A stretch of DNA of 64,000 bases from Rugalucina vietnamica (taxonomy: Eukaryota; Mollusca; Bivalvia; Lucinida; Lucinidae): contig OZ024871.1 of assembly GCA_964017185.1 (NCBI GenBank), positions 60,129,226-60,193,225 of the forward strand, read 5' to 3'. Below the pieces are notes generated by a model. The model saw nothing but the letters and a program-made list of their open reading frames with translations. It was not told the DNA's origin and ran no database searches. The position numbers and the translations under genes were made by a program. Of this stretch, positions 1,391-56,688 are shown in pieces. Numbering within the stretch: position 1 is the first letter of the stretch; every line of letters starts with the position of its first letter.

Positions 1391-1398
<8 letters not shown>

Positions 1399-2760
1399 CC
1401 TCTGTTTCAATATTTGTTCTGTTCTGAGTACAAATGCCAAGTTTAGCTATCAGCCGTACACCGGTTTACCTCCAGCTCTGTGCGAAAGATTTTTCTTCGA
1501 TGAGGCTCGGCCGCACAAAATGAACGAGGATTTTTACAAAATAAATGACAAGTTACCTCCTGGCACTGGCTGTCTATGTGCTGCAGGTAGCTGTTGTGGA
1601 TTCCAGGTGAACCCCCAGACTATCCAGCTACTGAAACAAACAGAAACATTTATTAACACAGGGTCTTGAAAATTTGATACCATATCTTCAAAGCATACCC
1701 CCAATTTTATACAAAAAATATGCCTTTTTTACCACTTTTTTTGCAATCAGAAAGCTCAAAAATGCTTATAAATGCTCTTTTCTGTCCATAAGAGCAACAT
1801 AGAGAGTCAATGTCACCCACTAATATCACCAACAGGGTCATAAAGATCATTTGAACAGTATGCAGGGGACTAAAATCAATGTCGCAGGAGTCCGAGCGGC
1901 GAAATCGGACATTTTAGCCGCATCTTGTGGTTGCGCCGATTTCCAAAGCCGGGCTTTTGCAGGTTATGAAAGTCATCAGATTACTAAAACCAAGCAGGAA
2001 TTCAATGAAAAAACATTCTCACTACATCAAAGCATATTATCCAGTGTTGGGGTAGGGTCAAGGCACCCCGCCCCCTCTTCTGGAATCAAGTTTTAGGCAG
2101 ATTTCAAATAAATTGCCCTTCATTGGGGCTCATTTTCATATTTAGAAAGATTCTATGATGAACATTAGCCTAAATAAAGCAGTTTTCAGTGTATGTAGTT
2201 AAAATGCAAAGTAAAATGCTGAGAACTTCAAGTCATGGCAGATAAGGACCCCTGAGTGCAAATTTCTACCTTCTCTATAGGGGTGAAAGCACCATTTAAA
2301 ATCCCATAGACCTCAATACAAACATTTTGGCTAAAACAGTATGTTTCCTGTAATTTGGTGAAACTTTTATCCAGTTACTTGTTTGCATTAGGGTGTCATA
2401 CATAAGTTAAGAAGAAAAAAAGCATACCTCATGTTGCATTTTAGAGCATCAGGGAGTATCGATGAGGTGCGCCATCAAAGGAGGAGATATTTGACCGAAG
2501 CGACCTGAAAAAATATTAAAATTAAAAATTCACTTGCAACCACACCTGGAATCAATAAATCACTGTAGCTAAATAATTACATTACTTTGAGCTTTATATT
2601 TAAATAATTGAAAATAATTATCAATGTATCTATCAGCATTAGTCAATCAGAAAAGCTGAAATTTTAATACCATTTAAATTGTCCACCAAAACTTTTGCGT
2701 ACACAGAAAGTGATGACGTAATGGTGCTTTCACCCCTATACTGTTCCAAATTCCCTCTAA

Positions 2761-3045
2761 ATCAACAAAAAAGACCTCTGTTTCAATATTTGTTCTGTTC
2801 TGAGTACAAATGCCAAGTTTAGCTATCAGCCGTACACCGGTTTACCTCCAGCTCTGTGCGAAAGATTTTTCTTCGATGAGGCTCGGCCGCACAAAATGAA
2901 CGAGGATTTTTACAAAATAAATGACAAGTTACCTCCTGGCACTGGCTGTCTATGTGCTGCAGGTAGCTGTTGTGGATTCCAGGTGAACCCCCAGACTATC
3001 CAGCTACTGAAACAAACAGAAACATTTATTAACACAGGGTCTTGA
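2761..3045 (+). other. 94-codon open frame in each unit, protein-like, unrecognised
   Basis: In unit 2 this frame is open from just after a TAA at 2758-2760 to the TGA at 3043-3045. Its only ATG is at 2896, so an unspliced product would be 49 residues. The translation looks protein-like: an aromatic and proline-rich N-terminal half (YQPYTGLPPALCERFFF), then a Cys-rich stretch (GCLCAAGSCCGFQ). A possible splice acceptor (tttag at about 2818-2822) and donor (CAG/GTGAAC at about 2982) could make it an exon. It could equally be chance. I cannot name a family. Confidence 0.2.
2933..3006 (-). other. Exon-like segment B in the array unit (minus strand)
   Basis: The minus strand has a strong pyrimidine tract and acceptor (gtttctgtttgtttcag), a 74-nt segment, and the donor CCAGGAG/GTAACT. 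After splicing from segment A it would read MSSWIVWGFTWNPQQL and on to the donor, in phase. Without a further splice, the frame reaches a TAA about 25 nt past the donor. The product is not recognised. No transcript evidence is available here. Confidence 0.3.
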
Positions 3046-3226
3046 AAATTTGATACCATATCTTTAAAGCATACCCCCAATTTTATACAAAAAATATGCC
3101 TTTTTTACCACTTTTTTTGCAATCAGAAAGCTCAAAAATGCTTATAAATGCTCTTTTCTGTCCATAAGAGCAACATAGAGAGTCAATGTCACCCACTAAT
3201 ATCACCAACAGGGTCATAAAGATCAT

Positions 3227-3535
3227 TTGAACAGTATGCAGGGGACTAAAATCAATGTCGCAGGAGTCCGAGCGGCGAAATCGGACATTTTAGCCGCATC
3301 TTGTGGTTGCGCCGATTTCCAAAGCCGGGCTTTTGCAGGTTATGAAAGTCATCAGATTACTAAAACCAAGCAGGAATTCAATGAAAAAGACATTCTCACT
3401 ACATCAAAGCATATTATCCAGTGTTGGGGTAGGGTCAAGGCACCCCGCCCCCTCTTCTGGAATCAAGTTTTAGGCAGATTTCAAATAAATTGCCCTTCAT
3501 TGGGGCTCATTTTCATATTTAGAAAGATTCTATGA
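3227..3535 (+). other. Recurrent 102-codon open frame, one per unit; coding status doubtful
   Basis: The frame opens with TTG; its first ATG is at 3236, giving about 99 residues. The same frame recurs at 4581, 7496, 8873, 10250, 11603, 14518, 15895, 17273, 18651, 20028, 21405, 22781, 25398, 26775, 28128, 31043, 32420, 33798, 35176, 36553, 37930, 39306, 41923, 44838 and 46216, with the same translation. In unit 1 (1851) one G is lost in the A-run at about 2010, shifting the frame. In unit 28, CGA has become TGA at about 47634. The sequence has no signal peptide, domain or motif I know. An AATAAA lies about 20 bp after the stop, followed by a GT-rich stretch. Identity between copies follows from recent amplification and is not evidence of selection. 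Confidence 0.2.
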
Positions 3536-3656
3536 TGAACATTAGCCTAAATAAAGCAGTTTTCAGTGTATGTAGTTAAAATGCAAAGTAAAATGCTGAG
3601 AACTTCAAGTCATGGCAGATAAGGACCCCTGAGTGCAAATTTCTACCTTCTCTATA

Positions 3657-4090
3657 GGGGTGAAAGCACCATTTAAAATCCCATAGACCTCAATACAAAC
3701 ATTTTGGCTAAAACAGTATGTTTCCTGTAATTTGGTGAAACTTTTATCCAGTTACTTGTTTGCATTAGGAAAAACACATACCTCATGTTGCATTTTAGAG
3801 CATCAGGGAGTATCGATGAGGTGCGCCATCAAAGGAGGAGATATTTGACCGAAGCGACCTGAAAAAATATTAAAATTAAAAATTCACTTGCAACCACACC
3901 TGGAATCAATAAATCACTGTAGCTAAATAATTACATTACTTTGAGCTTTATATTTAAATAATTGAAAATAATTATCAATGTATCTATCAGCATTAGTCAA
4001 TCAGAAAAGCTGAAATTTTAATACCATTTAAATTGTCCACCAAAACTTTTGCGTACACAGAAAGTGATGACGTAATGGTGCTTTCACCCC
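3657..4090. mobile_element. MITE embedded in every array unit
   Basis: Perfect 17-bp terminal inverted repeats (GGGGTGAAAGCACCATT at 3657-3673 and its complement at 4074-4090) are flanked on both sides by TATA, read as a TATA or TA target duplication. The body is 434 bp here and about 457 bp in long units. It starts 890 bp after the unit start in every complete unit lacking an insertion, so it was present before amplification. A CRE-like TGACGTAA lies just inside the right terminus. It has no coding capacity. Superfamily uncertain. Confidence 0.7.
3782..3858 (-). other. Exon-like segment A in the array unit (minus strand)
   Basis: Read on the minus strand, a T-rich tract ending tttttcag precedes this 77-nt segment, and CATGAG/GTATG follows it. 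It contains an ATG at 3786-3784, followed by two bases before the donor. Joined to segment B, the frame stays open: ATG AG/T AGC TGG and onward. The segment occurs in every unit with the same signals. Function unknown; possibly a gene remnant amplified with the unit. Confidence 0.3.
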
Positions 4091-5866
4091 TATACTGTTT
4101 CAAATTCCCTCTAAATCAACAAAAAAGACCTCTGTTTCAATATTTGTTCTGTTCTGAGTACAAATGCCAAGTTTAGCTATCAGCCGTACACCGGTTTACC
4201 TCCAGCTCTGTGCGAAAGATTTTTCTTCGATGAGGCTCGGCCGCACAAAATGAACGAGGATTTTTACAAAATAAATGACAAGTTACCTCCTGGCACTGGC
4301 TGTCTATGTGCTGCAGGTAGCTGTTGTGGATTCCAGGTGAACCCCCAGACTATCCAGCTACTGAAACAAACAGAAACATTTATTAACACAGGGTCTTGAA
4401 AATTTGATACCATATCTTTAAAGCATACCCCCAATTTTATACAAAAAATATGCCTTTTTTACCACTTTTTTTGCAATCAGAAAGCTCAAAAATGCTTATA
4501 AATGCTCTTTTCTGTCCATAAGAGCAACATAGAGAGTCAATGTCACCCACTAATATCACCAACAGGGTCATAAAGATCATTTGAACAGTATGCAGGGGAC
4601 TAAAATCAATGTCGCAGGAGTCCGAGCGGCGAAATCGGACATTTTAGCCGCATCTTGTGGTTGCGCCGATTTCCAAAGCCGGGCTTTTGCAGGTTATGAA
4701 AGTCATCAGATTACTAAAACCAAGCAGGAATTCAATGAAAAAGACATTCTCACTACATCAAAGCATATTATCCAGTGTTGGGGTAGGGTCAAGGCACCCC
4801 GCCCCCTCTTCTGGAATCAAGTTTTAGGCAGATTTCAAATAAATTGCCCTTCATTGGGGCTCATTTTCATATTTAGAAAGATTCTATGATGAACATAAGC
4901 CTAAATAAAGCAGTTTTCAGTGTATGTAGTTAAAATGCAAAGTAAAATGCTGAGAACTTCAAGTCATGGCAGATAAGGACCCCTGAGTGCAAATTTCTAC
5001 CTTCTCTATAGGGGTGAAAGCACCATTTAAAATCCCATAGACCTCAATACAAACATTTTGGCTAAAACAGTATGTTTCCTGTAATTTGGTGAAACTTTTA
5101 TCCAGTTACTTGTTTGCATTAGGGTGTCATACATAAGTTAAGAAGAAAAAAAGCATACCTCATGTTGCATTTTAGAGCATCAGGGAGTATCGATGAGGTG
5201 CGCCATCAAAGGAGGAGATATTTGACCGAAGCGACCTGAAAAAATATTAAAATTAAAAATTCACTTGCAACCACACCTGGAATCAATAAATCACTGTAGC
5301 TAAATAATTACATTACTTTGAGCTTTATATTTAAATAATTGAAAATAATTATCAATGTATCTATCAGCATTAGTCAATCAGAAAAGCTGAAATTTTAATA
5401 CCATTTAAATTGTCCACCAAAACTTTTGCGTACACAGAAAGTGATGACGTAATGGTGCTTTCACCCCTATACTGTTCCAAATTCCCTCTAAATCAACAAA
5501 ACAGACCTCTGTTTCAATATTTGTTCTGTTCTGAGTACAAATGCCAAGTTTAGCTATCAGCCGTACACCGGTTTACCTCCAGCTCTGTGCGAAAGATTTT
5601 TCTTCGATGAGGCTCGGCCGCACAAAATGAACGAGGATTTTTACAAAATAAATGACAAGTTACCTCCTGGCACTGGCTGTCTATGTGCTGCAGGTAGCTG
5701 TTGTGGATTCCAGGTGAACCCCCAGACTATCCAGCTACTGAAACAAACAGAAACATTTATTAACACAGGGTCTTGAAAATTTGATACCATATCTTTAAAG
5801 CATACCCCCAATTTTATACAAAAAATATGCCTTTTTTACCACTTTTTTTGCAATCAGAAAGCTCAA

Positions 5867-7402
5867 CCAGAGGACCAATGGTCCTGTAAACGCTCACCTG
5901 AAACCCGAGATATATACCAATAAACTTGTTTGACTAGAATGGTAATACCCATGTATATAACCCCAGGGCTTGGTCAGAGCAACCCCTGGAGTCAATTTCT
6001 TTTTGAAAACATAAAACTGCAGTCCATTTGCCAATTTACTGAAAGTTTTGCCCTTCAAATGACATTTTAACAATTTTCCCCATTCAAATGCATGGGTGGC
6101 CTAAGTTGACCTTGCCGTAAAATAGGTCAAGGTCATCAAAGGGTCACAATTTATATAACTTTGTAGAGCTCCATTGCCTGATGCTTCATACCAAGTTTCA
6201 AAATCATAGGCCTTCTGGTTCTGGAGGGAAAGATTTTTAAAGGTTTTTGCTATTTATAGCCCTGACAGCCATCTTGGTCATGTGACCATGACAATTTATA
6301 TACACTTTCATTCCCACTTCCTAACAATGCTCCTAATAAAGTTTGGCTTTGATTGGCCAAGCAGTTTCAGAGAAGAAGATCTTTGAATATCACTGTAATA
6401 TGCATGTATATTGCCCCGGGGTGGGGGCTGACATACCCCTGGGGTCCAAATTTTTTCAGAATCATCAATCTTAAGTCCATTTGCCCATTTCCTGCAAGTT
6501 TTTCCCTACAAATGACATTTTAACATTTTTCCCCATTCAAATGCATGAGCAACCTATGTTGACCTTGCCGTAAAATAGGTCAAGGTCATCCAAGGGTCAT
6601 GATTTATATAAACTTTGTAGAGCTCCAGTCACTGATGCTTCACACCAAGTTTCAAAATCATTGGCCTTCTGGTTCTGAAGAAGAAGATTTTTAAAGGTTT
6701 TTTCTATTTATAGCCATGGCGGCCATCTTGGTCCTGTGACCTTGACCATATATATAAACTTTCTTTCCCCCTTCCCAAGGATGCTCCATATGAAGTTTGG
6801 CTTTGATTGGCCATGCGGTTTCAGGGGAGAAGATGTTTCATTATTATGGAAATATACATGTATATAGCCCCGGGGCAGGGGCAGACAACCCCCCAGGGGC
6901 TAAAATTTTCCATTAACATTAATCTTTTGTCCATTTGCCTATTCCCAGTAAGTTTTACCCATTAAATAGCAATCTACCATTTTTTCCCATTCAAATGCAT
7001 TGGCGACCTAAGTTGACCTTGCCGTAAAATAGGTCAAGGTCATCCTAGGGTCATGATTTATATAAACTATGATGGGCCCACGTCCCTGATGCTACATACC
7101 AAGTTTCGTGGAAATCGGCCCACTGGTTCTGGAGAAGAAGATTTTTAAAGGTTTTTGCTATTTATAGCCATGGCGGCCATCTTGGTCATGTGACCTGGAC
7201 CATTTATATAAACTTTCGTTCCCCCTTCCTAAGGATGCTCCACATGAAGTTTGGCTTTGATTGGCCAAGCGGTTTCAGAGGAGAAGATCTTTGAAATTGT
7301 GGACGACGGACGACAGAAGACGGACGACGGACGGACGACGGACGGACGCCGGAGCATGGGTATACTATAAGCTCACCTGTGAGCCTTTGGCTCAGGTGAG
7401 CT
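5867..7402 (+). mobile_element. 1,536-bp repeat element in unit 4
   Basis: Comparison with empty units shows an insertion into 'gctcaaaaatgc', with two A's duplicated. The left end carries a small hairpin (aggaccaatggtcct at about 5871-5885) and 'cgctcacctgaa'. The body has three sub-repeats of about 454 bp, each with the phrase 'gaccttgccgtaaaatagg' (about 6106, 6560, 7015). The right end has a GGAC-rich tract (7301-7353) and a hairpin (7370-7402) ending ggtgagct. It has no open frame of note and is non-autonomous. Confidence 0.85.
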
Positions 7403-10400
7403 AAAAATGCTTATAAATGCTCTTTTCTGTCCATAAGAGCAACATAGAGAGTCAATGTCACCCACTAATATCACCAACAGGGTCATAAAGATCATTTGAA
7501 CAGTATGCAAGGGACTAAAATCAATGTCGCAGGAGTCCGAGCGGCGAAATCGGACATTTTAGCCGCATCTTGTGGTTGCGCCGATTTCCAAAGCCGGGCT
7601 TTTGCAGGTTATGAAAGTCATCAGATTACTAAAACCAAGCAGGAATTCAATGAAAAAGACATTCTCACTACATCAAAGCATATTATCCAGTGTTGGGGTA
7701 GGGTCAAGGCACCCCGCCCCCTCTTCTGGAATCAAGTTTTAGGCAGATTTCAAATAAATTGCCCTTCATTGGGGCTCATTTTCATATTTAGAAAGATTCT
7801 ATGATGAACATTAGCCTAAATAAAGCAGTTTTCAGTGTATGTAGTTAAAATGCAAAGTAAAATGCTGAGAACTTCAAGTCATGGCAGATAAGGACCCCTG
7901 AGTGCAAATTTCTACCTTCTCTATAGGGGTGAAAGCACCATTTAAAATCCCATAGACCTCAATTCAAACATTTTGGCTAAAACAGTATGTTTCCTGTAAT
8001 TTGGTGAAACTTTTATCCAGTTACTTGTTTGCATTAGGGTGTCATACATAAGTTAAGAAGAAAAAAAGCATACCTCATGTTGCATTTTAGAGCATCAGGG
8101 AGTATCGATGAGGTGCGCCATCAAAGGAGGAGATATTTGACCGAAGCGACCTGAAAAAATATTAAAATTAAAAATTCACTTGCAACCACACCTGGAATCA
8201 ATAAATCACTGTAGCTAAATAATTACATTACTTTGAGCTTTATATTTAAATAATTGAAAATAATTATCAATGTATCTATCAGCATTAGTCAATCAGAAAA
8301 GCTGAAATTTTAATACCATTTAAATTGTCCACCAAAACTTTTGCGTACACAGAAAGTGATGACGTAATGGTGCTTTCACCCCTATACTGTTCCAAATTCC
8401 CTCTAAATCAACAAAAAAGACCTCTGTTTCAATATTTGTTCTGTTCTGAGTACAAATGCCAATTTTGGCTATCAGCCGTACACCGGTTTACCTCCAGCTC
8501 TGTGCGAAAGATTTTTCTTCGATGAGGCTCGGCCGCACAAAATGAACGAGGATTTTTACAAAATAAATGACAAGTTACCTCCTGGCACTGGCTGTCTATG
8601 TGCTGCAGGTAGCTGTTGTGGATTCCAGGTGAACCCCCAGACTATCCAGCTACTGAAACAAACAGAAACATTTATTAACACAGGGTCTTGAAAATTTGAT
8701 ACCATATCTTTAAAGCATACCCCCAATTTTATACAAAAAATATGCCTTTTTTACCACTTTTTTTGCAATCAGAAAGCTCAAAAATGCTTATAAATGCTCT
8801 TTTCTGTCCATAAGAGCAACATAGAGAGTCAATGTCACCCACTAACATCACCAACAGGGTCATAAAGATCATTTGAACAGTATGCAGGGGACTAAAATCA
8901 ATGTCGCAGGAGTCCGAGCGGCGAAATCGGACATTTTAGCCGCATCTTGTGGTTGCGCCGATTTCCAAAGCCGGGCTTTTGCAGGTTATGAAAGTCATCA
9001 GATTACTAAAACCAAGCAGGAATTCAATGAAAAAGACATTCTCACTACATCAAAGCATATTATCCAGTGTTGGGGTAGGGTCAAGGCACCCCGCCCCCTC
9101 TTCTGGAATCAAGTTTTAGGCAGATTTCAAATAAATTGCCCTTCATTGGGGCTCATTTTCATATTTAGAAAGATTCTATGATGAACATTAGCCTAAATAA
9201 AGCAGTTTTCAGTGTATGTAGTTAAAATGCAAAGTAAAATGCTGAGAACTTCAAGTCATGGCAGATAAGGACCCCTGAGTGCAAATTTCTACCTTCTCTA
9301 TAGGGGTGAAAGCACCATTTAAAATCCCATAGACCTCAATACAAACATTTTGGCTAAAACAGTATGTTTCCTGTAATTTGGTGAAACTTTTATCCAGTTA
9401 CTTGTTTGCATTAGGGTGTCATACATAAGTTAAGAAGAAAAAAAGCATACCTCATGTTGCATTTTAGAGCATCAGGGAGTATCGATGAGGTGCGCCATCA
9501 AAGGAGGAGATATTTGACCGAAGCGACCTGAAAAAATATTAAAATTAAAAATTCACTTGCAACCACACCTGGAATCAATAAATCACTGTAGCTAAATAAT
9601 TACATTACTTTGAGCTTTATATTTAAATAATTGAAAATAATTATCAATGTATCTATCAGCATTAGTCAATCAGAAAAGCTGAAATTTTAATACCATTTAA
9701 ATTGTCCACCAAAACTTTTGCGTACACAGAAAGTGATGACGTAATGGTGCTTTCACCCCTATACTGTTCCAAATTCCCTCTAAATCAACAAAAAAGACCT
9801 CTGTTTCAATATTTGTTCTGTTCTGAGTACAAATGCCAAGTTTAGCTATCAGCCGTACACCGGTTTACCTCCAGCTCTGTGCGAAAGATTTTTCTTCGAT
9901 GAGGCTCGGCCGCACAAAATGAACGAGGATTTTTACAAAATAAATGACAAGTTACCTCCTGGCACTGGCTGTCTATGTGCTGCAGGTAGCTGTTGTGGAT
10001 TCCAGGTGAACCCCCAGACTATCCAGCTACTGAAACAAACAGAAACATTTATTAACACAGGGTCTTGAAAATTTGATACCATATCTTTAAAGCATACCCC
10101 CAATTTTATACAAAAAATATGCCTTTTTTACCACTTTTTTTGCAATCAGAAAGCTCAAAAATGCTTATAAATGCTCTTTTCTGTCCATAAGAGCAACATA
10201 GAGAGTCAATGTCACCCACTAACATCACCAACAGGGTCATAAAGATCATTTGAACAGTATGCAGGGGACTAAAATCAATGTCGCAGGAGTCCGAGCGGCG
10301 AAATCGGACATTTTAGCCGCATCTTGTGGTTGCGCCGATTTCCAAAGCCGGGCTTTTGCAGGTTATGAAAGTCATCAGATTACTAAAACCAAGCAGGAAT

Positions 10401-12888
10401 TCAATGAAAAAGACATTCTCACTACATCAAAGCATATTATCCAGTGTTGGGGTAGGGTCAAGGCACCCCGCCCCCTCTTCTGGAATCAAGTTTTAGGCAG
10501 ATTTCAAATAAATTGCCCTTCATTGGGGCTCATTTTCATATTTAGAAAGATTCTATGATGAACATTAGCCTAAATAAAGCAGTTTTCAGTGTATGTAGTT
10601 AAAATGCAAAGTAAAATGCTGAGAACTTCAAGTCATGGCAGATAAGGACCCCTGAGTGCAAATTTCTACCTTCTCTATAGGGGTGAAAGCACCATTTAAA
10701 ATCCCATAGACCTCAATACAAACATTTTGGCTAAAACAGTATGTTTCCTGTAATTTGGTGAAACTTTTATCCAGTTACTTGTTTGCATTAGGAAAAACGC
10801 ATACCTCATGTTGCATTTTAGAGCATCAGGGAGTATCGATGAGGTGCGCCATCAAAGGAGGAGATATTTGACCGAAGCGACCTGAAAAAATATTAAAATT
10901 AAAAATTCACTTGCAACCACACCTGGAATCAATAAATCACTGTAGCTAAATAATTACATTACTTTGAGCTTTATATTTAAATAATTGAAAATAATTATCA
11001 ATGTATCTATCAGCATTAGTCAATCAGAAAAGCTGAAATTTTAATACCATTTAAATTGTCCACCAAAACTTTTGCGTACACAGAAAGTGATGACGTAATG
11101 GTGCTTTCACCCCTATACTGTTTCAAATTCCCTCTAAATCAACAAAAAAGACCTCTGTTTCAATATTTGTTCTGTTCTGAGTACAAATGCCAAGTTTAGC
11201 TATCAGCCGTACACCGGTTTACCTCCAGCTCTGTGCGAAAGATTTTTCTTCGATGAGGCTCGGCCGCACAAAATGAACGAGGATTTTTACAAAATAAATG
11301 ACAAGTTACCTCCTGGCACTGGCTGTCTATGTGCTGCAGGTAGCTGTTGTGGATTCCAGGTGAACCCCCAGACTATCCAGCTACTGAAACAAACAGAAAC
11401 ATTTATTAACACAGGGTCTTGAAAATTTGATACCATATCTTTAAAGCATACCCCCAATTTTATACAAAAAATATGCCTTTTTTACCACTTTTTTGCAATC
11501 AGAAAGCTCAAAAATGCTTATAAATGCTCTTTTCTGTCCATAAGAGCAACATAGAGAGTCAATGTCACCCACTAATATCACCAACAGGGTCATAAAGATC
11601 ATTTGAACAGTATGCAGGGGACTAAAATCAATGTCGCAGGAGTCCGAGCGGCGAAATCGGACATTTTAGCCGCATCTTGTGGTTGCGCCGATTTCCAAAG
11701 CCGGGCTTTTGCAGGTTATGAAAGTCATCAGATTACTAAAACCAAGCAGGAATTCAATGAAAAAGACATTCTCACTACATCAAAGCATATTATCCAGTGT
11801 TGGGGTAGGGTCAAGGCACCCCGCCCCCTCTTCTGGAATCAAGTTTTAGGCAGATTTCAAATAAATTGCCCTTCATTGGGGCTCATTTTCATATTTAGAA
11901 AGATTCTATGATGAACATAAGCCTAAATAAAGCAGTTTTCAGTGTATGTAGTTAAAATGCAAAGTAAAATGCTGAGAACTTCAAGTCATGGCAGATAAGG
12001 ACCCCTGAGTGCAAATTTCTACCTTCTCTATAGGGGTGAAAGCACCATTTAAAATCCCATAGACCTCAATACAAACATTTTGGCTAAAACAGTATGTTTC
12101 CTGTAATTTGGTGAAACTTTTATCCAGTTACTTGTTTGCATTAGGGTGTCATACATAAGTTAAGAAGAAAAAAAGCATACCTCATGTTGCATTTTAGAGC
12201 ATCAGGGAGTATCGATGAGGTGCGCCATCAAAGGAGGAGATATTTGACCGAAGCGACCTGAAAAAATATTAAAATTAAAAATTCACTTGCAACCACACCT
12301 GGAATCAATAAATCACTGTAGCTAAATAATTACATTACTTTGAGCTTTATATTTAAATAATTGAAAATAATTATCAATGTATCTATCAGCATTAGTCAAT
12401 CAGAAAAGCTGAAATTTTAATACCATTTAAATTGTCCACCAAAACTTTTGCGTACACAGAAAGTGATGACGTAATGGTGCTTTCACCCCTATACTGTTCC
12501 AAATTCCCTCTAAATCAACAAAACAGACCTCTGTTTCAATATTTGTTCTGTTCTGAGTACAAATGCCAAGTTTAGCTATCAGCCGTACACCGGTTTACCT
12601 CCAGCTCTGTGCGAAAGATTTTTCTTCGATGAGGCTCGGCCGCACAAAATGAACGAGGATTTTTACAAAATAAATGACAAGTTACCTCCTGGCACTGGCT
12701 GTCTATGTGCTGCAGGTAGCTGTTGTGGATTCCAGGTGAACCCCCAGACTATCCAGCTACTGAAACAAACAGAAACATTTATTAACACAGGGTCTTGAAA
12801 ATTTGATACCATATCTTTAAAGCATACCCCCAATTTTATACAAAAAATATGCCTTTTTTACCACTTTTTTTGCAATCAGAAAGCTCAA

Positions 12889-14424
12889 CCAGAGGACCAA
12901 TGGTCCTGTAAACGCTCACCTGAAACCCGAGATATATACCAATAAACTTGTTTGACTAGAATGGTAATACCCATGTATATAACCCCAGGGCTTGGTCAGA
13001 GCAACCCCTGGAGTCAATTTCTTTTTGAAAACATAAAACTGCAGTCCATTTGCCAATTTACTGAAAGTTTTGCCCTTCAAATGACATTTTAACAATTTTC
13101 CCCATTCAAATGCATGGGTGGCCTAAGTTGACCTTGCCGTAAAATAGGTCAAGGTCATCAAAGGGTCACAATTTATATAACTTTGTAGAGCTCCATTGCC
13201 TGATGCTTCATACCAAGTTTCAAAATCATAGGCCTTCTGGTTCTGGAGGGAAAGATTTTTAAAGGTTTTTGCTATTTATAGCCCTGACAGCCATCTTGGT
13301 CATGTGACCATGACAATTTATATATACTTTCATTCCCACTTCCTAACAATGCTCCTAATAAAGTTTGGCTTTGATTGGCCAAGCAGTTTCAGAGAAGAAG
13401 ATCTTTGAATATCACTGTAATATGCATGTATATTGCCCCGGGGTGGGGGCTGACATACCCCTGGGGTCCAAATTTTTTCAGAATCATCAATCTTAAGTCC
13501 ATTTGCCCATTTCCTGCAAGTTTTTCCCTACAAATGACATTTTAACATTTTTCCCCATTCAAATGCATGAGCAACCTATGTTGACCTTGCCGTAAAATAG
13601 GTCAAGGTCATCCAAGGGTCATGATTTATATAAACTTTGTAGAGCTCCAGTCACTGATGCTTCACACCAAGTTTCAAAATCATTGGCCTTCTGGTTCTGA
13701 AGAAGAAGATTTTTAAAGGTTTTTTCTATTTATAGCCATGGCGGCCATCTTGGTCCTGTGACCTTGACCATATATATAAACTTTCTTTCCCCCTTCCCAA
13801 GGATGCTCCATATGAAGTTTGGCTTTGATTGGCCATGCGGTTTCAGGGGAGAAGATGTTTCATTATTATGGAAATATACATGTATATAGCCCCGGGGCAG
13901 GGGCAGACAACCCCCCAGGGGCTAAAATTTTCCATTAACATTAATCTTTTGTCCATTTGCCTATTCCCAGTAAGTTTTACCCATTAAATAGCAATCTACC
14001 ATTTTTTCCCATTCAAATGCATTGGCGACCTAAGTTGACCTTGCCGTAAAATAGGTCAAGGTCATCCTAGGGTCATGATTTATATAAACTATGATGGGCC
14101 CACGTCCCTGATGCTACATACCAAGTTTCGTGGAAATCGGCCCACTGGTTCTGGAGAAGAAGATTTTTAAAGGTTTTTGCTATTTATAGCCATGGCGGCC
14201 ATCTTGGTCATGTGACCTGGACCATTTATATAAACTTTCGTTCCCCCTTCCTAAGGATGCTCCACATGAAGTTTGGCTTTGATTGGCCAAGCGGTTTCAG
14301 AGGAGAAGATCTTTGAAATTGTGGACGACGGACGACAGAAGACGGACGACGGACGGACGACGGACGGACGCCGGAGCATGGGTATACTATAAGCTCACCT
14401 GTGAGCCTTTGGCTCAGGTGAGCT
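12889..14424 (+). mobile_element. 1,536-bp repeat element in unit 8
   Basis: Same insertion point, ends and orientation as the copy in unit 4. It therefore spread by duplication of the host unit and not by a new insertion. It has 'tatatatac' near 13320 where the unit 4 copy has 'tatatacac'. Confidence 0.85.
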
Positions 14425-36900: not shown

Positions 36901-39846
36901 GTTAAAATGCAAAGTAAAATGCTGAGAACTTCAAGTCATGGCAGATAAGGACCCCTGAGTGCAAATTTCTACCTTCTCTATAGGGGTGAAAGCACCATTT
37001 AAAATCCCATAGACCTCAATACAAACATTTTGGCTAAAACAGTATGTTTCCTGTAATTTGGTGAAACTTTTATCCAGTTACTTGTTTGCATTAGGGTGTC
37101 ATACATAAGTTAAGAAGAAAAAAAGCATACCTCATGTTGCATTTTAGAGCATCAGGGAGTATCGATGAGGTGCGCCATCAAAGGAGGAGATATTTGACCG
37201 AAGCGACCTGAAAAAATATTAAAATTAAAAATTCACTTGCAACCACACCTGGAATCAATAAATCACTGTAGCTAAATAATTACATTACTTTGAGCTTTAT
37301 ATTTAAATAATTGAAAATAATTATCAATGTATCTATCAGCATTAGTCAATCAGAAAAGCTGAAATTTTAATACCATTTAAATTGTCCACCAAAACTTTTG
37401 CGTACACAGAAAGTGATGACGTAATGGTGCTTTCACCCCTATACTGTTCCAAATTCCCTCTAAATCAACAAAAAAGACCTCTGTTTCAATATTTGTTCTG
37501 TTCTGAGTACAAATGCCAAGTTTAGCTATCAGCCGTACACCGGTTTACCTCCAGCTCTGTGCGAAAGATTTTTCTTCGATGAGGCTCGGCCGCACAAAAT
37601 GAACGAGGATTTTTACAAAATAAATGACAAGTTACCTCCTGGCACTGGCTGTCTATGTGCTGCAGGTAGCTGTTGTGGATTCCAGGTGAACCCCCAGACT
37701 ATCCAGCTACTGAAACAAACAGAAACATTTATTAACACAGGGTCTTGAAAATTTGATACCATATCTTTAAAGCATACCCCCAATTTTATACAAAAAATAT
37801 GCCTTTTTTACCACTTTTTTTGCAATCAGAAAGCTCAAAAATGCTTATAAATGCTCTTTTCTGTCCATAAGAGCAACATAGAGAGTCAATGTCACCCACT
37901 AATATCACCAACAGGGTCATAAAGATCATTTGAACAGTATGCAGGGGACTAAAATCAATGTCGCAGGAGTCCGAGCGGCGAAATCGGACATTTTAGCCGC
38001 ATCTTGTGGTTGCGCCGATTTCCAAAGCCGGGCTTTTGCAGGTTATGAAAGTCATCAGATTACTAAAACCAAGCAGGAATTCAATGAAAAAGACATTCTC
38101 ACTACATCAAAGCATATTATCCAGTGTTGGGGTAGGGTCAAGGCACCCCGCCCCCTCTTCTGGAATCAAGTTTTAGGCAGATTTCAAATAAATTGCCCTT
38201 CATTGGGGCTCATTTTCATATTTAGAAAGATTCTATGATGAACATTAGCCTAAATAAAGCAGTTTTCAGTGTATGTAGTTAAAATGCAAAGTAAAATGCT
38301 GAGAACTTCAAGTCATGGCAGATAAGGACCCCTGAGTGCAAATTTCTACCTTCTCTATAGGGGTGAAAGCACCATTTAAAATCCCATAGACCTCAATACA
38401 AACATTTTGGCTAAAACAGTATGTTTCCTGTAATTTGGTGAAACTTTTATCCAGTTACTTGTTTGCATTAGGGTGTCATACATAAGTTAAGAAGAAAAAA
38501 AGCATACCTCATGTTGCATTTTAGAGCATCAGGGAGTATCGATGAGGTGCGCCATCAAAGGAGGAGATATTTGACCGAAGCGACCTGAAAAAATATTAAA
38601 ATTAAAAATTCACTTGCAACCACACCTGGAATCAATAAATCACTGTAGCTAAATAATTACATTACTTTGAGCTTTATATTTAAATAATTGAAAATAATTA
38701 TCAATGTATCTATCAGCATTAGTCAATCAGAAAAGCTGAAATTTTAATACCATTTAAATTGTCCACCAAAACTTTTGCGTACACAGAAAGTGATGACGTA
38801 ATGGTGCTTTCACCCCTATACTGTTCCAAATTCCCTCTAAATCAACAAAAAAGACCTCTGTTTCAATATTTGTTCTGTTCTGAGTACAAATGCCAAGTTT
38901 AGCTATCAGCCGTACACCGGTTTACCTCCAGCTCTGTGCGAAAGATTTTTCTTCGATGAGGCTCGGCCGCACAAAATGAACGAGGATTTTTACAAAATAA
39001 ATGACAAGTTACCTCCTGGCACTGGCTGTCTATGTGCTGCAGGTAGCTGTTGTGGATTCCAGGTGAACCCCCAGACTATCCAGCTACTGAAACAAACAGA
39101 AACATTTATTAACACAGGGTCTTGAAAATTTGATACCATATCTTTAAAGCATACCCCCAATTTTATACAAAAAATATGCCTTTTTTACCACTTTTTTGCA
39201 ATCAGAGAGCTCAAAAATGCTTATAAATGCTCTTTTCTGTCCATAAGAGCAACATAGAGAGTCAATGTCACCCACTAATATCACCAACAGGGTCATAAAG
39301 ATCATTTGAACAGTATGCAGGGGACTAAAATCAATGTCGCAGGAGTCCGAGCGGCGAAATCGGACATTTTAGCCGCATCTTGTGGTTGCGCCGATTTCCA
39401 AAGCCGGGCTTTTGCAGGTTATGAAAGTCATCAGATTACTAAAACCAAGCAGGAATTCAATGAAAAAGACATTCTCACTACATCAAAGCATATTATCCAG
39501 TGTTGGGGTAGGGTCAAGGCACCCCGCCCCCTCTTCTGGAATCAAGTTTTAGGCAGATTTCAAATAAATTGCCCTTCATTGGGGCTCATTTTCATATTTA
39601 GAAAGATTCTATGATGAACATTAGCCTAAATAAAGCAGTTTTCAGTGTATGTAGTTAAAATGCAAAGTAAAATGCTGAGAACTTCAAGTCATGGCAGATA
39701 AGGACCCCTGAGTGCAAATTTCTACCTTCTCTATAGGGGTGAAAGCACCATTTAAAATCCCATAGACCTCAATACAAACATTTTGGCTAAAACAGTATGT
39801 TTCCTGTAATTTGGTGAAACTTTTATCCAGTTACTTGTTTGCATTA

Positions 39847-41106
39847 GGGCTATTCCAGTAAAACATAAGTACGGGGGGAAGAAGGCACTTTGAATTTTGA
39901 CCCTCCACCTATAGAAGTGAATTTCATCTTGACTGAGCCACCTACAGAACCGTTCATTTCAATAAAACACCCTCCTACAGAAGCAAAATTTAATACGGAT
40001 AGAAGTAAATTAAGAGGGATTTTTTTAGGAACAGAAGTAAATTTTTGTATTGCTGTTTTACGGAACTGTATTGTGTGATTGTTGTCAAAAGTCATTAAAA
40101 TAATGTTCTCACGATAATAATAAAGATTGAATACCTATTTTTTGAAAATATATCTTCATTTTATCATCCTGATCAGCAAGCCATGTGGACAAGGAAGCTT
40201 GTTTGAATCTCATCAGCTTTCATGATTATTGTGCCTATTTTCAACAATGGGCTAGTATATCCAATTAATTATATGTATAACGTCACTCTTAACCGTTATC
40301 ATGCTGAGATTTTATTTGTTTCCAATAACGTGTGCCACTGAGATTTAAAGAAAAAAAAAAAAATCGCTTTTTCGCCACTTTTCAGGCTTCAAAAAACACT
40401 ATGTTGCATTTTCCAAAAAGCTAATACTTGCTTTGGGAGACCGATACAAGTCGGTATATCGCTACGTTTTGTGTCTAAACATCATTAAATTCATCAATGA
40501 GCCGCCATTTTAGCTTTCAACAGGTCTGTAATTGTGATTTCTGACCGAAATCCCGGTTCAAATGCCTTTTCTAGGCTTAAAATGCCAAAAAACAACCTCG
40601 ATTGCTGACAGTTTTTTTTTGCACACGTCACCAGCGCGAACGTGATCGAGAGCACTCTCACCATTCTCGCGAGATCAGACGATACCTCATCTTTATCTCT
40701 CGCATTTGACGCTTTGAATTGTGGGATATAGCCGATTTTGGCTACAGACGACACACGAAGAAAGCTGGGGCATCCCGCATGAATTTCCCAGATCCCATTG
40801 GCCAACTGCGACAGGTCAGTGCGTGAAGCGCTACCTGTCAGCGACAATGCACTCTCACAGGAAAAAATCGAAGTCGGATCGGGCGAACGAAAGGTTTTTA
40901 GTCTGTTCAATTTGCTTCTATGCATTGCATTGAATTTTACACCTTAGAACCGATTTTCAACACGAAAAATACCCCACCTCCTATAGAAGCAATTTTTCTC
41001 CAACTCCCACCACGTACAGAAGTATTTTAACCAACAAATGACCCTACGATAGAAGTTTATTAAAGTGCCGTCTTCCCGGGGTACCTATGTTCAACTGGAA
41101 TAGCCC
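39847..41106. mobile_element. Non-autonomous PIF/Harbinger-like element, unit 24
   Basis: Copy of the unit 14 element displaced by 16,525 bp, with the same TTA flanks (39844-39846 and 41107-41109). It arose by duplication of the higher-order block, not by transposition. Confidence 0.8.
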
Positions 41107-41462
41107 TTAGGAAAAAAGCATACCTCATGTTGCATTTTAGAGCATCAGGGAGTATCGATGAGGTGCGCCATCAAAGGAGGAGATATTTGACCGAAGCGAC
41201 CTGAAAAAATATTAAAATTAAAAATTCACTTGCAACCACACCTGGAATCAATAAATCACTGTAGCTAAATAATTACATTACTTTGAGCTTTATATTTAAA
41301 TAATTGAAAATAATTATCAATGTATCTATCAGCATTAGTCAATCAGAAAAGCTGAAATTTTAATACCATTTAAATTGTCCACCAAAACTTTTGCGTACAC
41401 AGAAAGTGATGACGTAATGGTGCTTTCACCCCTAAACTGTTTCAAATTCCCTCTAAATCAAC

Positions 41463-42839
41463 AAAAAAGACCTCTGTTTCAATATTTGTTCTGTTCTGAG
41501 TACAAATGCCAAGTTTAGCTATCAGCCGTACACCGGTTTACCTCCAGCTCTGTGCGAAAGATTTTTCTTCGATGAGGCTCGGCCGCACAAAATGAACGAG
41601 GATTTTTACAAAATAAATGACAAGTTACCTCCTGGCACTGGCTGTCTATGTGCTGCAGGTAGCTGTTGTGGATTCCAGGTGAACCCCCAGACTATCCAGC
41701 TACTGAAACAAACAGAAACATTTATTAACACAGGGTCTTGAAAATTTGATACCATATCTTTAAAGCATACCCCCAATTTTATACAAAAAATATGCCTTTT
41801 TTACCACTTTTTTTGCAATCAGAAAGCTCAAAAATGCTTATAAATGCTCTTTTCTGTCCATAAGAGCAACATAGAGAGTCAATGTCACCCACTAATATCA
41901 CCAACAGGGTCATAAAGATCATTTGAACAGTATGCAGGGGACTAAAATCAATGTCGCAGGAGTCCGAGCGGCGAAATCGGACATTTTAGCCGCATCTTGT
42001 GGTTGCGCCGATTTCCAAAGCCGGGCTTTTGCAGGTTATGAAAGTCATCAGATTACTAAAACCAAGCAGGAATTCAATGAAAAAGACATTCTCACTACAT
42101 CAAAGCATATTATCCAGTGTTGGGGTAGGGTCAAGGCACCCCGCCCCCTCTTCTGGAATCAAGTTTTAGGCAGATTTCAAATAAATTGCCCTTCATTGGG
42201 GCTCATTTTCATATTTAGAAAGATTCTATGATGAACATAAGCCTAAATAAAGCAGTTTTCAGTGTATGTAGTTAAAATGCAAAGTAAAATGCTGAGAACT
42301 TCAAGTCATGGCAGATAAGGACCCCTGAGTGCAAATTTCTACCTTCTCTATAGGGGTGAAAGCACCATTTAAAATCCCATAGACCTCAATACAAACATTT
42401 TGGCTAAAACAGTATGTTTCCTGTAATTTGGTGAAACTTTTATCCAGTTACTTGTTTGCATTAGGGTGTCATACATAAGTTAAGAAGAAAAAAAGCATAC
42501 CTCATGTTGCATTTTAGAGCATCAGGGAGTATCGATGAGGTGCGCCATCAAAGGAGGAGATATTTGACCGAAGCGACCTGAAAAAATATTAAAATTAAAA
42601 ATTCACTTGCAACCACACCTGGAATCAATAAATCACTGTAGCTAAATAATTACATTACTTTGAGCTTTATATTTAAATAATTGAAAATAATTATCAATGT
42701 ATCTATCAGCATTAGTCAATCAGAAAAGCTGAAATTTTAATACCATTTAAATTGTCCACCAAAACTTTTGCGTACACAGAAAGTGATGACGTAATGGTGC
42801 TTTCACCCCTATACTGTTCCAAATTCCCTCTAAATCAAC
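41463..42839. repeat. Hybrid unit 25, recombination junction
   Basis: The left part carries unit-15 markers: the start of the unit follows the 'cccctaaactgtttc' variant (about 41430, also at 24905), and there is a seven-T run before 'gcaatcag'. The right part carries markers of units 7 and 17: 'gaacataagcc' at about 42233, and the 'aaaacagacc' start of the next unit. The switch lies between about 41820 and 42237. Confidence 0.8.
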
Positions 42840-43208
42840 AAAACAGACCTCTGTTTCAATATTTGTTCTGTTCTGAGTACAAATGCCAAGTTTAGCTATC
42901 AGCCGTACACCGGTTTACCTCCAGCTCTGTGCGAAAGATTTTTCTTCGATGAGGCTCGGCCGCACAAAATGAACGAGGATTTTTACAAAATAAATGACAA
43001 GTTACCTCCTGGCACTGGCTGTCTATGTGCTGCAGGTAGCTGTTGTGGATTCCAGGTGAACCCCCAGACTATCCAGCTACTGAAACAAACAGAAACATTT
43101 ATTAACACAGGGTCTTGAAAATTTGATACCATATCTTTAAAGCATACCCCCAATTTTATACAAAAAATATGCCTTTTTTACCACTTTTTTTGCAATCAGA
43201 AAGCTCAA

Positions 43209-44744
43209 CCAGAGGACCAATGGTCCTGTAAACGCTCACCTGAAACCCGAGATATATACCAATAAACTTGTTTGACTAGAATGGTAATACCCATGTATAT
43301 AACCCCAGGGCTTGGTCAGAGCAACCCCTGGAGTCAATTTCTTTTTGAAAACATAAAACTGCAGTCCATTTGCCAATTTACTGAAAGTTTTGCCCTTCAA
43401 ATGACATTTTAACAATTTTCCCCATTCAAATGCATGGGTGGCCTAAGTTGACCTTGCCGTAAAATAGGTCAAGGTCATCAAAGGGTCACAATTTATATAA
43501 CTTTGTAGAGCTCCATTGCCTGATGCTTCATACCAAGTTTCAAAATCATAGGCCTTCTGGTTCTGGAGGGAAAGATTTTTAAAGGTTTTTGCTATTTATA
43601 GCCCTGACAGCCATCTTGGTCATGTGACCATGACCATTTATATACACTTTCATTCCCACTTCCTAACAATGCTCCTAATAAAGTTTGGCTTTGATTGGCC
43701 AAGCAGTTTCAGAGAAGAAGATCTTTGAATATCACTGTAATATGCATGTATATTGCCCCGGGGTGGGGGCTGACATACCCCTGGGGTCCAAATTTTTTCA
43801 GAATCATCAATCTTAAGTCCATTTGCCCATTTCCTGCAAGTTTTTCCCTACAAATGACATTTTAACATTTTTCCCCATTCAAATGCATGAGCAACCTATG
43901 TTGACCTTGCCGTAAAATAGGTCAAGGTCATCCAAGGGTCATGATTTATATAAACTTTGTAGAGCTCCAGTCACTGATGCTTCACACCAAGTTTCAAAAT
44001 CATTGGCCTTCTGGTTCTGAAGAAGAAGATTTTTAAAGGTTTTTTCTATTTATAGCCATGGCGGCCATCTTGGTCCTGTGACCTTGACCATATATATAAA
44101 CTTTCTTTCCCCCTTCCCAAGGATGCTCCATATGAAGTTTGGCTTTGATTGGCCATGCGGTTTCAGGGGAGAAGATGTTTCATTATTATGGAAATATACA
44201 TGTATATAGCCCCGGGGCAGGGGCAGACAACCCCCCAGGGGCTAAAATTTTCCATTAACATTAATCTTTTGTCCATTTGCCTATTCCCAGTAAGTTTTAC
44301 CCATTAAATAGCAATCTACCATTTTTTCCCATTCAAATGCATTGGCGACCTAAGTTGACCTTGCCGTAAAATAGGTCAAGGTCATCCTAGGGTCATGATT
44401 TATATAAACTATGATGGGCCCACGTCCCTGATGCTACATACCAAGTTTCGTGGAAATCGGCCCACTGGTTCTGGAGAAGAAGATTTTTAAAGGTTTTTGC
44501 TATTTATAGCCATGGCGGCCATCTTGGTCATGTGACCTGGACCATTTATATAAACTTTCGTTCCCCCTTCCTAAGGATGCTCCACATGAAGTTTGGCTTT
44601 GATTGGCCAAGCGGTTTCAGAGGAGAAGATCTTTGAAATTGTGGACGACGGACGACAGAAGACGGACGACGGACGGACGACGGACGGACGCCGGAGCATG
44701 GGTATACTATAAGCTCACCTGTGAGCCTTTGGCTCAGGTGAGCT
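43209..44744 (+). mobile_element. 1,536-bp repeat element in unit 26
   Basis: Same insertion point as the other three. Near 43633-43645 it reads 'gaccatttatatacac': it shares 'tatacac' with the unit 4 copy and has a private C. Its closest relative may therefore be the unit 4 lineage. Confidence 0.85.
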
Positions 44745-45754
44745 AAAAATGCTTATAAATGCTCTTTTCTGTCCATAAGAGCAACATAGAGAGTCAATGT
44801 CACCCACTAATATCACCAACAGGGTCATAAAGATCATTTGAACAGTATGCAAGGGACTAAAATCAATGTCGCAGGAGTCCGAGCGGCGAAATCGGACATT
44901 TTAGCCGCATCTTGTGGTTGCGCCGATTTCCAAAGCCGGGCTTTTGCAGGTTATGAAAGTCATCAGATTACTAAAACCAAGCAGGAATTCAATGAAAAAG
45001 ACATTCTCACTACATCAAAGCATATTATCCAGTGTTGGGGTAGGGTCAAGGCACCCCGCCCCCTCTTCTGGAATCAAGTTTTAGGCAGATTTCAAATAAA
45101 TTGCCCTTCATTGGGGCTCATTTTCATATTTAGAAAGATTCTATGATGAACATTAGCCTAAATAAAGCAGTTTTCAGTGTATGTAGTTAAAATGCAAAGT
45201 AAAATGCTGAGAACTTCAAGTCATGGCAGATAAGGACCCCTGAGTGCAAATTTCTACCTTCTCTATAGGGGTGAAAGCACCATTTAAAATCCCATAGACC
45301 TCAATTCAAACATTTTGGCTAAAACAGTATGTTTCCTGTAATTTGGTGAAACTTTTATCCAGTTACTTGTTTGCATTAGGGTGTCATACATAAGTTAAGA
45401 AGAAAAAAAGCATACCTCATGTTGCATTTTAGAGCATCAGGGAGTATCGATGAGGTGCGCCATCAAAGGAGGAGATATTTGACCGAAGCGACCTGAAAAA
45501 ATATTAAAATTAAAAATTCACTTGCAACCACACCTGGAATCAATAAATCACTGTAGCTAAATAATTACATTACTTTGAGCTTTATATTTAAATAATTGAA
45601 AATAATTATCAATGTATCTATCAGCATTAGTCAATCAGAAAAGCTGAAATTTTAATACCATTTAAATTGTCCACCAAAACTTTTGCGTACACAGAAAGTG
45701 ATGACGTAATGGTGCTTTCACCCCTATACTGTTCCAAATTCCCTCTAAATCAAC

Positions 45755-48404
45755 AAAAAAAGACCTCTGTTTCAATATTTGTTCTGTTCTGAGTACAAAT
45801 GCCAAGTTTAGCTATCAGCCGTACACCGGTTTACCTCCAGCTCTGTGCGAAAGATTTTTCTTCGATGAGGCTCGGCCGCACAAAATGAACGAGGATTTTT
45901 ACAAAATAAATGACAAGTTACCTCCTGGCACTGGCTGTCTATGTGCTGCAGGTAGCTGTTGTGGATTCCAGGTGAACCCCCAGACTATCCAGCTACTGAA
46001 ACAAACAGAAACATTTATTAACACAGGGTCTTGAAAATTTGATACCATATCTTTAAAGCATACCCCCAATTTTATACAAAAAATATGCCTTTTTTACCAC
46101 TTTTTTTGCAATCAGAAAGCTCAAAAATGCTTATAAATGCTCTTTTCTGTCCATAAGAGCAACATAGAGAGTCAATGTCACCCACTAACATCACCAACAG
46201 GGTCATAAAGATCATTTGAACAGTATGCAGGGGACTAAAATCAATGTCGCAGGAGTCCGAGCGGCGAAATCGGACATTTTAGCCGCATCTTGTGGTTGCG
46301 CCGATTTCCAAAGCCGGGCTTTTGCAGGTTATGAAAGTCATCAGATTACTAAAACCAAGCAGGAATTCAATGAAAAAGACATTCTCACTACATCAAAGCA
46401 TATTATCCAGTGTTGGGGTAGGGTCAAGGCACCCCGCCCCCTCTTCTGGAATCAAGTTTTAGGCAGATTTCAAATAAATTGCCCTTCATTGGGGCTCATT
46501 TTCATATTTAGAAAGATTCTATGATGAACATTAGCCTAAATAAAGCAGTTTTCAGTGTATGTAGTTAAAATGCAAAGTAAAATGCTGAGAACTTCAAGTC
46601 ATGGCAGATAAGGACCCCTGAGTGCAAATTTCTACCTTCTCTATAGGGGTGAAAGCACCATTTAAAATCCCATAGACCTCAATACAAACATTTTGGCTAA
46701 AACAGTATGTTTCCTGTAATTTGGTGAAACTTTTATCCAGTTACTTGTTTGCATTAGGGTGTCATACATAAGTTAAGAAGAAAAAAAGCATACCTCATGT
46801 CGCATTTTAGAGCATCAGGGAGTATCGATGAGGTGCGCCATCAAAGGAGGAGATATTTGACCGAAGCGACCTGAAAAAATATTAAAATTAAAAATTCACT
46901 TGCAACCACACCTGGAATCAATAAATCACTGTAGCTAAATAATTACATTACTTTGAGCTTTATGTTTAAATAATTGAAAATAATTATCAATGTATCTATC
47001 AGCATTAGTCAATCAGAAAAGCTGAAATTTTAATACCATTTAAATTGTCCACCAAAACTTTTGCGTACACAGAAAGTGATGACGTAATGGTGCTTTCACC
47101 CCTATACTGTTCCAAATTCCCTCTAAATCGACAAAAAAGACCTCTGTTTCAATATTTGTTCTGTTCTGAGTACAAATGCCAAGTTTAGCTATCAGCCGTA
47201 CACCGGTTTACCTCCAGCTCTGTGCGAAAGATTTTTCTTCGATGAGGCTCGGCCGCACAAAATGAACGAGGATTTTTACAAAATAAATGACAAGTTACCT
47301 CCTGGCACTGGCTGTCTATGTGCTGCAGGTAGCTGTTGTGGATTCCAGGTGAACCCCCAGACTATCCAGCTACTGAAACAAACAGAAACATTTATTAACA
47401 CAGGGTCTTGAAAATTTGATACCATATCTTTAAAGCATACCCCCAATTTTATACAAAAAATATGCCTTTTTTACCACTTTTTTTGCAATCAGAAAGCTCA
47501 AAAATGCTTATAAATGCTCTTTTCTGTCCATAAGAGCAACATAGAGAGTCAATGTCACCCACTAATATCACCAACAGGGTCATAAAGATCATTTGAACAG
47601 TATGCAGGGGACTAAAATCAATGTCGCAGGAGTCTGAGCGGCGAAATCGGACATTTTAGCCGCATCTTGTGGTTGCGCCGATTTCCAAAGCCGGGCTTTT
47701 GCAGGTTATGAAAGTCATCAGATTACTAAAACCAAGCAGGAATTCAATGAAAAAGACATTCTCACTACATCAAAGCATATTATCCAGTGTTGGGGTAGGG
47801 TCAAGGCACCCCGCCCCCTCTTCTGGAATCAAGTTTTAGGCAGATTTCAAATAAATTGCCCTTCATTGGGGCTCATTTTCATATTTAGAAAGATTCTATG
47901 ATGAACATTAGCCTAAATAAAGCAGTTTTCAGTGTATGTAGTTAAAATGCAAAGTAAAATGCTGAGAACTTCAAGTCATGGCAGATAAGGACCCCTGAGT
48001 GCAAATTTCTACCTTCTCTATAGGGGTGAAAGCACCATTTAAAATCCCATAGACCTCAATACAAACATTTTGGCTAAAACAGTATGTTTCCTGTAATTTG
48101 GTGAAACTTTTATCCAGTTACTTGTTTGCATTAGGGTGTCATACATAAGTTAAGAAGAAAAAAAGCATACCTCATGTTGCATTTTAGAGCATCAGGGAGT
48201 ATCGATGAGGTGCGCCATCAAAGGAGGAGATATTTGACCGAAGCGACCTGAAAAAATATTAAAATTAAAAATTCACTTGCAACCACACCTGGAATCAATA
48301 AATCACTGTAGCTAAATAATTACATTACTTTGAGCTTTATATTTAAATAATTGAAAATAATTATCAATGTATCTATCAGCATTAGTCAATCAGAAAAGCT
48401 GAAA
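45755..48404. repeat. Units 27-28, third partial block and array edge
   Basis: Unit 27 carries the markers of units 11 and 21 (catgtcgcat, tttatgtttaaat), and its end (ctctaaatcgac) is shared only with unit 21. It directly follows unit 26, which is of type 8/18, so equivalents of units 9 and 10 are skipped. Unit 28 resembles unit 22 and stops after 'gctgaaa' at 48404, about 1,272 bp into the unit. At its start, unit 27 has a unique seventh A. Confidence 0.8.
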
Positions 48405-49047: not shown

Positions 49048-49141
49048 TTTTGCTGGTGAAATATTGTCATGTGACGTGGAAAATTGGAAATATTATTTTC
49101 TTAATTTTGTCGCGAAAAATGGTGACAATAATAAACCTGTA

Positions 49142-50136: not shown

Positions 50137-50143
50137 ACCTGTA

Positions 50144-50604: not shown

Positions 50605-50610
50605 ACTTAC

Positions 50611-51881: not shown

Positions 51882-52057
51882 TATGGCGGAATAATCTTTT
51901 ATTGTGTAAAATTTCTGAATTATCGTTGAATTTACGGAAACTATTTGTGTTTTTTGTGTATTTTTGGAATAATTTTATGTGGGCAACGTTTTGTCAATAG
52001 ACGAGTATAATTTCTTTCTAGTTCGTGTTCTATTCTTGGAGAAAAATGTTCGAATAA

Positions 52058-56623: not shown

Positions 56624-56688
56624 CCATATCGCCGGGATAATTCTGGCTCGAAAATACCATGGGAGAAAACCACTCACTAGGCCGAAAC

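Follow-up and report, generated by a model that had tools for sequence, protein, structure and literature searches.

A 36-unit higher-order transposon array, very probably of nonautonomous KolobokP type, in the bivalve Rugalucina vietnamica

KolobokP DNA transposons (Kojima and Bao 2022, PMC9587614) were present in almost all of the bivalve genomes analysed in that paper; in its accessible portion, to which all statements from it below refer, long terminal direct repeats (LTDRs) of ~450 or ~660 bp, terminal inverted repeats (TIRs) of 11–18 bp, ends of the type RR..YY and target-site duplications (TSDs) of 3–5 bp are described, and the elements occur as monomers, solo LTDRs, multimers and abutted internal regions (INTs). 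In one family the INT has TATA at both ends and a single TATA is left at the INT-INT junction; abutted INTs with one TATA were reported as a by-product of LTDR excision (PMC9587614). Nonautonomous families of oyster measure 1,738–3,261 bp; autonomous elements encode a DDD/E transposase and, on the opposite strand, a His-Me finger nuclease (PMC9587614). A stretch of 64,000 nucleotides from Rugalucina vietnamica (the window; C3:60129226–60193225, contig OZ024871.1) was analysed, and its assembly (1.09 Gb in 47 contigs) was searched. The window contains most of a tandem array, which is very probably a long, higher-order multimer of a nonautonomous KolobokP-type element.

The whole array comprises 36 units (first and last partial) over 60.5 kb, from C3:60117125 to window position 48404. 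The unit is 1,377 bp long, one 457-bp LTDR plus a 920-bp INT, and copies are 98.0–100% identical across window 1391–48404. The array, a reference unit and its LTDR have the following window coordinates:

1391–48404, + strand: (LTDR-INT)n multimer, in-window part
18553–19929, + strand: reference 1,377-bp unit, LTDR plus INT, phase arbitrary
19081–19537, + strand: LTDR of the reference unit, 457 bp, with perfect 17-bp TIR GGGGTGAAAGCACCATT and TATA on either side

The LTDR ends are GGGG..CCCC, i.e., GG..CC; the INT starts and finishes with TATA, and INT-INT junctions carry one TATA. Full-length matches were obtained for 33 of the 36 LTDRs in the array, two being split by an insert (B, below) and the last one truncated (unit table); the pattern list behind the array extent showed about 100 of 145 places. 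The genome search with the unit (best 40 of 70 candidates scored; copy numbers are lower bounds) gave solo copies of unit positions 529–985 and dispersed copies running from 529 to 1377 and then from 1 to 985; the 457-bp segment is therefore the terminal direct repeat.

Elsewhere in the genome the family was found as LTDR-INT-LTDR insertions of ~1.83 kb, solo LTDRs, a dimer (L013, TSD TTAA) and an array with abutted INTs; seven undisrupted monomers were 1,829–1,836 bp long. Exact 4-bp TSDs were present at 11/11 INT-bearing insertions with both ends intact, in ten different sequences (e.g., ATCA, TTAA, GAAT, CACT, AGAG); outside this count are L019, L024, L025, L027, L028, L050, L051 and L052 (lost end or fragments), an array on C1 (right end extending beyond the LTDR) and the window array (right end lost). 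The search with the INT (30/30 candidates scored) returned the window array, an array of eight INTs on C1 and one dimer, besides single insertions and fragments, a distribution that lends no support to a satellite of the centromeric type, from which such nested periodicity is best known according to an earlier note on this DNA. Nor was its description of the unit as gene-like upheld: the two longest open reading frames (ORFs) of the element (94 and 111 aa) gave no Pfam match over the cut-off, shorter ORFs being outside the test, and CpG observed/expected was 0.49 in the unit vs 0.69 in the right flank. That the unit is a transposon (LTDR plus INT), with a single-copy form at the same target site nearby, had been missed there. 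An Rfam scan of the window gave no match at gathering scores.

The C1 array has the layout LTDR-(INT)3-LTDR-(INT)5-LTDR plus a stub, with six LTDR-less junctions carrying one TATA; one similar junction lies on C15, L026 is an insertion with abutted INTs, and the junction pattern had eight matches in all (seven INT-INT with single TATA, one LTDR end). Where INTs abut seamlessly, on C1 and C15, the units resemble the empty site of a 916-bp satellite hit by a miniature inverted-repeat transposable element, pairs of which would then have moved the monomer as an ad hoc composite. In the internal-region tree (midpoint-rooted, 4/31 array hits included), however, the INT-INT units nest within the clade of filled units, although branches within C1 are weakly supported; in a decayed relative (65–70% identity) on C4 and C1, INT is already followed by LTDR; and in KolobokP this junction has been described as a by-product when LTDRs are excised (PMC9587614). 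Because of the tree, the decayed relative and the published KolobokP anatomy, the satellite-first origin, which is considered extremely improbable, was dropped in favour of a KolobokP-type element. The old, degraded relative consists of INT plus right LTDR and was seen at L050 (3551–4880) and at L051, with 65–70% identity.

In the self-comparison of the window, 31-mer shifts were most frequent at 16,525, with 1,377 second and 7,022 and 7,023 also high; 8059–26683 aligned with 24584–43208 ungapped with 11 mismatches in 18,625 bp, and 1391–12888 with 8413–19936 at 99.6% over 11,525 bp. Chance is ruled out for the periodicity, since near-identity spans kilobases. The blocks are:

3129–10151, + strand: ~7,022-bp block, four units plus insert A; a similar block runs from 10152
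10152–26676, + strand: 16,525-bp higher-order block of ten units; repeats from 26677 with the tenth position changed

Units of the 16,525-bp block start at 10152, 11505, 14421, 15797, 17175, 18553, 19930, 21307, 22683 and 25300; when compared by signature (point variants, small indels and insertions; unit table), these ten show nine distinct signatures, 15797 and 17175 being alike. In the second block, from 26677, 8/10 positions keep their signature, the unit at 35078 has one extra base change, and the tenth position (41825) holds a different unit type; the third block is incomplete, and several unit types are skipped. The earlier note had given both periods, which are borne out by the 31-mer shifts and self-alignments, and was right as to a nested periodicity that is based on a ~1.38-kb unit and marked by transposon insertions, for which repeated local duplication is the best explanation. 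Its ten unit types in fixed order hold insofar as a ten-unit block recurs, but not in the number of signatures (nine), the changed tenth position or the third block, which skips types; the start that it placed at 1391 is where insert C ends, whereas the array starts 12.1 kb upstream of the window, at C3:60117125.

Three kinds of insert (A, B and C) are nested in the units:

1–1390, + strand: insert C copy 2, end portion; insert of 1.68 kb, core tandem repeats ~465 bp
5867–7398, + strand: insert A copy 1, 1,532 bp, core repeats ~454 bp
12889–14420, + strand: insert A copy 2
29414–30945, + strand: insert A copy 3
43209–44740, + strand: insert A copy 4
23325–24583, + strand: insert B copy 1, TIR GGGCTATTCCAG, TSD TTA (by eye)
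39850–41108, + strand: insert B copy 2, 0 differences from copy 1

Copy 1 of insert C is located upstream of the window, in L011. The four A copies differ at 0–2 bases, the two C copies by indels only; A and C have in common a 42-bp start (90%), a GGACGAC-type microsatellite and a 3' hairpin, with core tandem repeats of ~454 and ~465 bp, respectively. A and C are putatively Helentron-like and B putatively Harbinger-like. By eye, the host unit of insert B seems to have had a 23-bp deletion and 995C>T beforehand; at least 31 full-length relatives of B (91–98% identity; best 40 of 1100 candidates scored) are found elsewhere. On the simplest reading, A and B were each inserted once and then copied along with the units.

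L012, a locus ~162 kb further downstream on C3, has just one element, 1,834 bp long and bounded by the TSD ATCA. The left flank of this element corresponds to that of the array (~9 kb at 98.7%, 247 bp at 99.2%, and ~200 bp up to the element), the array copy holding two additional stretches of 1.6 and 1.1 kb; on the right, the following were found in the window:

48405–50861, no strand assigned: foreign DNA at the array right end; replaces the last 75 bp of the LTDR, the right TSD and ~17 bp of flank
50862–50914, no strand assigned: 53 bp of right-hand flank at the insertion site, with the same sequence as the L012 right flank
51879–52007, no strand assigned: further right flank, 129 bp identical to L012

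The tree distance between the L012 INT and the first array INT is practically zero; from this and the matching flanks, array and L012 copy share one ancestral insertion, and since a single element stands at the same ATCA site in L012, the array was expanded in place. The single copy of L012 is likely the older state. Single copy and array have their insertion site in common, and the array contains nested insertions and duplicated blocks.

Four family loci occur in duplicate on one chromosome (L024/L025, L032/L037, L038/L039 and L010/L012; 22, 71, 159 and 162 kb apart, ~95–99% identical), as unpurged haplotypes might; the pairs may be either such haplotypes or segmental duplications. An assembly artefact, in which the 16.5-kb blocks were falsely duplicated or haplotypes left unpurged, is nevertheless quite improbable as the origin of the array: 11 substitutions separate the blocks, several types are missing from the third, the history told by unit types and insert copies is coherent, and one duplicate pair (L024/L025) lies in inverted orientation. 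Three local copies of a right-flank ORF are present on C3 (60190953, 60338199 and 60436571–60438348) and favour a local segmental duplication.

A candidate empty site at C5:32.24 Mb was rejected, having only the right flank in common, from ~10 bp beyond the element end; C5:32240376–32244887 carries pieces of the window right flank, mostly at 99–100% identity. A 221-aa ORF (window 48382–49047, − strand) extends from the array right end, mostly within the DNA that replaced it, and has a weak, sub-threshold helix-hairpin-helix match. Two ~1-kb dispersed repeats (window 49138–50137 and 55624–56639; many copies each, 96–99% identity) lie to the right of the array, and downstream of the window there is a satellite-like array with 42- and 89-bp spacings (L044, 5670–9965). 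On a contig of 30.7 kb there is a COX1 gene that looks bivalve when translated by the invertebrate mitochondrial code.

The homing-endonuclease family PF05551 gave 39 matches in the genome (49/49 candidates scored) and 0 in 14 control genomes. Tandem sets of these matches were found on C12 (28.967–28.993 Mb; period 4,231 bp, seven matches), on C2 (67.351–67.383 Mb; period 4,606 bp, eight matches with one shorter step, plus a further pair) and on C4 (68.181–68.232 Mb, L054; ~4,981 bp, 12 matches, spacing partly uneven). The C4 unit contains a transposase ORF (PF20700, E 1.9e-55) and, on the opposite strand, a nuclease ORF (PF05551, E 9.5e-10), the best PDB matches of the latter being to I-PpoI, weak at E 0.06. 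The three sets are apparently autonomous KolobokP-like multimers of 7 to ~12 units. C4:37732420–37740089, considered as an autonomous partner, proved to be an LTDR interrupted by a ~7.2-kb insertion. A 741-aa ORF at window 61287–63512 (+ strand) matches PF20700 (Mutator-like transposase) below threshold, whereas the C4 KolobokP-like transposase matches this family strongly; the ORF has at least 76 genome matches (best 74 of 216 candidates scored), with two more near-identical copies on C3. Its region was rejected as an LTDR element: no LTDR pair was present among the repeats around and beyond the ORF, and no nuclease ORF was recognised there by eye.

Several observations weigh against the assignment to KolobokP, which is based on anatomy. 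An autonomous element with the same LTDR was not found in the genome, and L054, the one autonomous unit read, is dissimilar to the window element, with LTDR ends not discernible in its sequence; L054 thus points to the probable presence of the KolobokP kind in this genome and not to a partner of the window element. In the two longest ORFs of the window element neither a transposase nor a nuclease could be recognised, a gap that is expected if the family is nonautonomous. The array right end and its TSD are lost; the single-site insertion therefore rests on the left end and the L012 duplicate. Exact 4-bp TSDs flank 6/14 independent solo LTDRs (L032/L037 and L038/L039 merged as duplicates, L049 included), the others showing a 3-of-4 match (four), a 2-of-4 match (three) or an offset-only match (one); 2-of-4 matches fit recombination between different copies, mutation can account for near matches, and solo LTDRs are by-products expected of exchange. 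Private variants are common to both repeats of an insertion in 7/11 rows (L022, 5; L012 and L013, 3 each; L016 and L021, 2 each; L020 and L025, 1 each), and LTR (long terminal repeat) elements would match too; exchange in arrays also explains this sharing.

The shared variants, together with the grouping of the two repeats of one insertion, which mostly cluster together, would indeed suit a retrotransposon of the TRIM (terminal-repeat retrotransposon in miniature) type, whose direct repeats recombined to a TDRx_I(x-1) array (TDR, terminal direct repeat; I, interior) as in clam biv-TRIM; terminal direct repeats, 4-bp TSDs, solo repeats and arrays are all compatible with it, and the accessible portion of PMC6934838 records biv-TRIM arrays with as many as 58 repeats. 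The perfect 17-bp TIR and the ends GG..CC instead of TG..CA speak against such an element; by eye, whichever strand is read, no TGG lies within 12 bases of the repeat, and there is no clear polypurine tract at the other border; four of the 11 rows (L014, L017, L018 and L024) are without a shared private variant, and TATA flanking the LTDR with single-TATA INT-INT junctions are published signs of LTDR excision (PMC9587614). A TRIM-like origin is accordingly regarded as very unlikely, and a KolobokP-type element is retained.

For this KolobokP-type element, the following history is proposed. One LTDR-INT-LTDR element of ~1.83 kb entered the ATCA site, as L012 and the array left end show; units would have been added in place by unequal exchange between the 457-bp repeats or by integration of LTDR-INT circles; A, B and C would then have landed in single units, and larger exchanges may have copied blocks of units with their insertions, giving the observed 7,022- and 16,525-bp periods. 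Transposase, and perhaps also the His-Me nuclease, for which a role in inducing exchanges has been proposed in the literature, may have been supplied in trans by the autonomous KolobokP-like elements present in the genome. It is tentatively suggested, as a possibility rather below even chances, that KolobokP-type multimers are a route from transposon to higher-order satellite: block duplication at two levels would have enlarged one insertion to 36 units, perhaps with the His-Me nuclease of tandem autonomous copies acting in trans. One genome displays the series single copy, dimer, 8-INT mixed array and 36-unit higher-order array, and the largest array and the unexpanded form share their target site; the proposed mechanisms of KolobokP multimer formation (unequal exchange, circle integration, nuclease-induced exchange) thereby become directly testable. 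Higher-order periodicity can arise from a DNA transposon.

In centromeric higher-order satellites, monomer types follow in fixed order with nested periods, in long arrays at centromeres; ordered types and nested periods are shared by the present locus, which differs in being one local mobile-element array of 60.5 kb at C3:60.1 Mb. In clams, biv-TRIM carries terminal direct repeats and forms TDRx_I(x-1) arrays as long as TDR58_I57, so that array length alone has precedent; it differs in being of LTR type, with repeats of 202–218 bp, an interior of 77–80 bp and a 7-bp polypurine tract, and no long TIR is mentioned in the accessible portion of the paper (PMC6934838). Internal terminal repeats are likewise shared in the tandem arrays of Cassandra and other plant LTR retrotransposons, which are, in contrast, plant retroelements (accessible portions of PMC7215508 and PMC11899658). 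Closest are the nonautonomous KolobokP families and KolobokP-1 of Mercenaria (PMC9587614): the layout is LTDR-INT-LTDR, with 457-bp repeats at both ends falling in the ~450-bp class; the 17-bp perfect TIR and the GG..CC ends agree with 11–18 bp and RR..YY; the exact 4-bp TSDs, of ten sequences, lie within 3–5 bp and show no strong site preference; solo LTDRs, (LTDR-INT)n-LTDR multimers and abutted INTs losing one TATA recur; and the monomers of 1,829–1,836 bp are within the 1.7–3.3 kb of the oyster nonautonomous families. The present array differs by its 36 units, ten-unit higher-order repeat and nested transposons, no KolobokP array of such size or layering being found in the accessible portion of PMC9587614. 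The kind of element is already described; of interest here are the size and the layering of the array.

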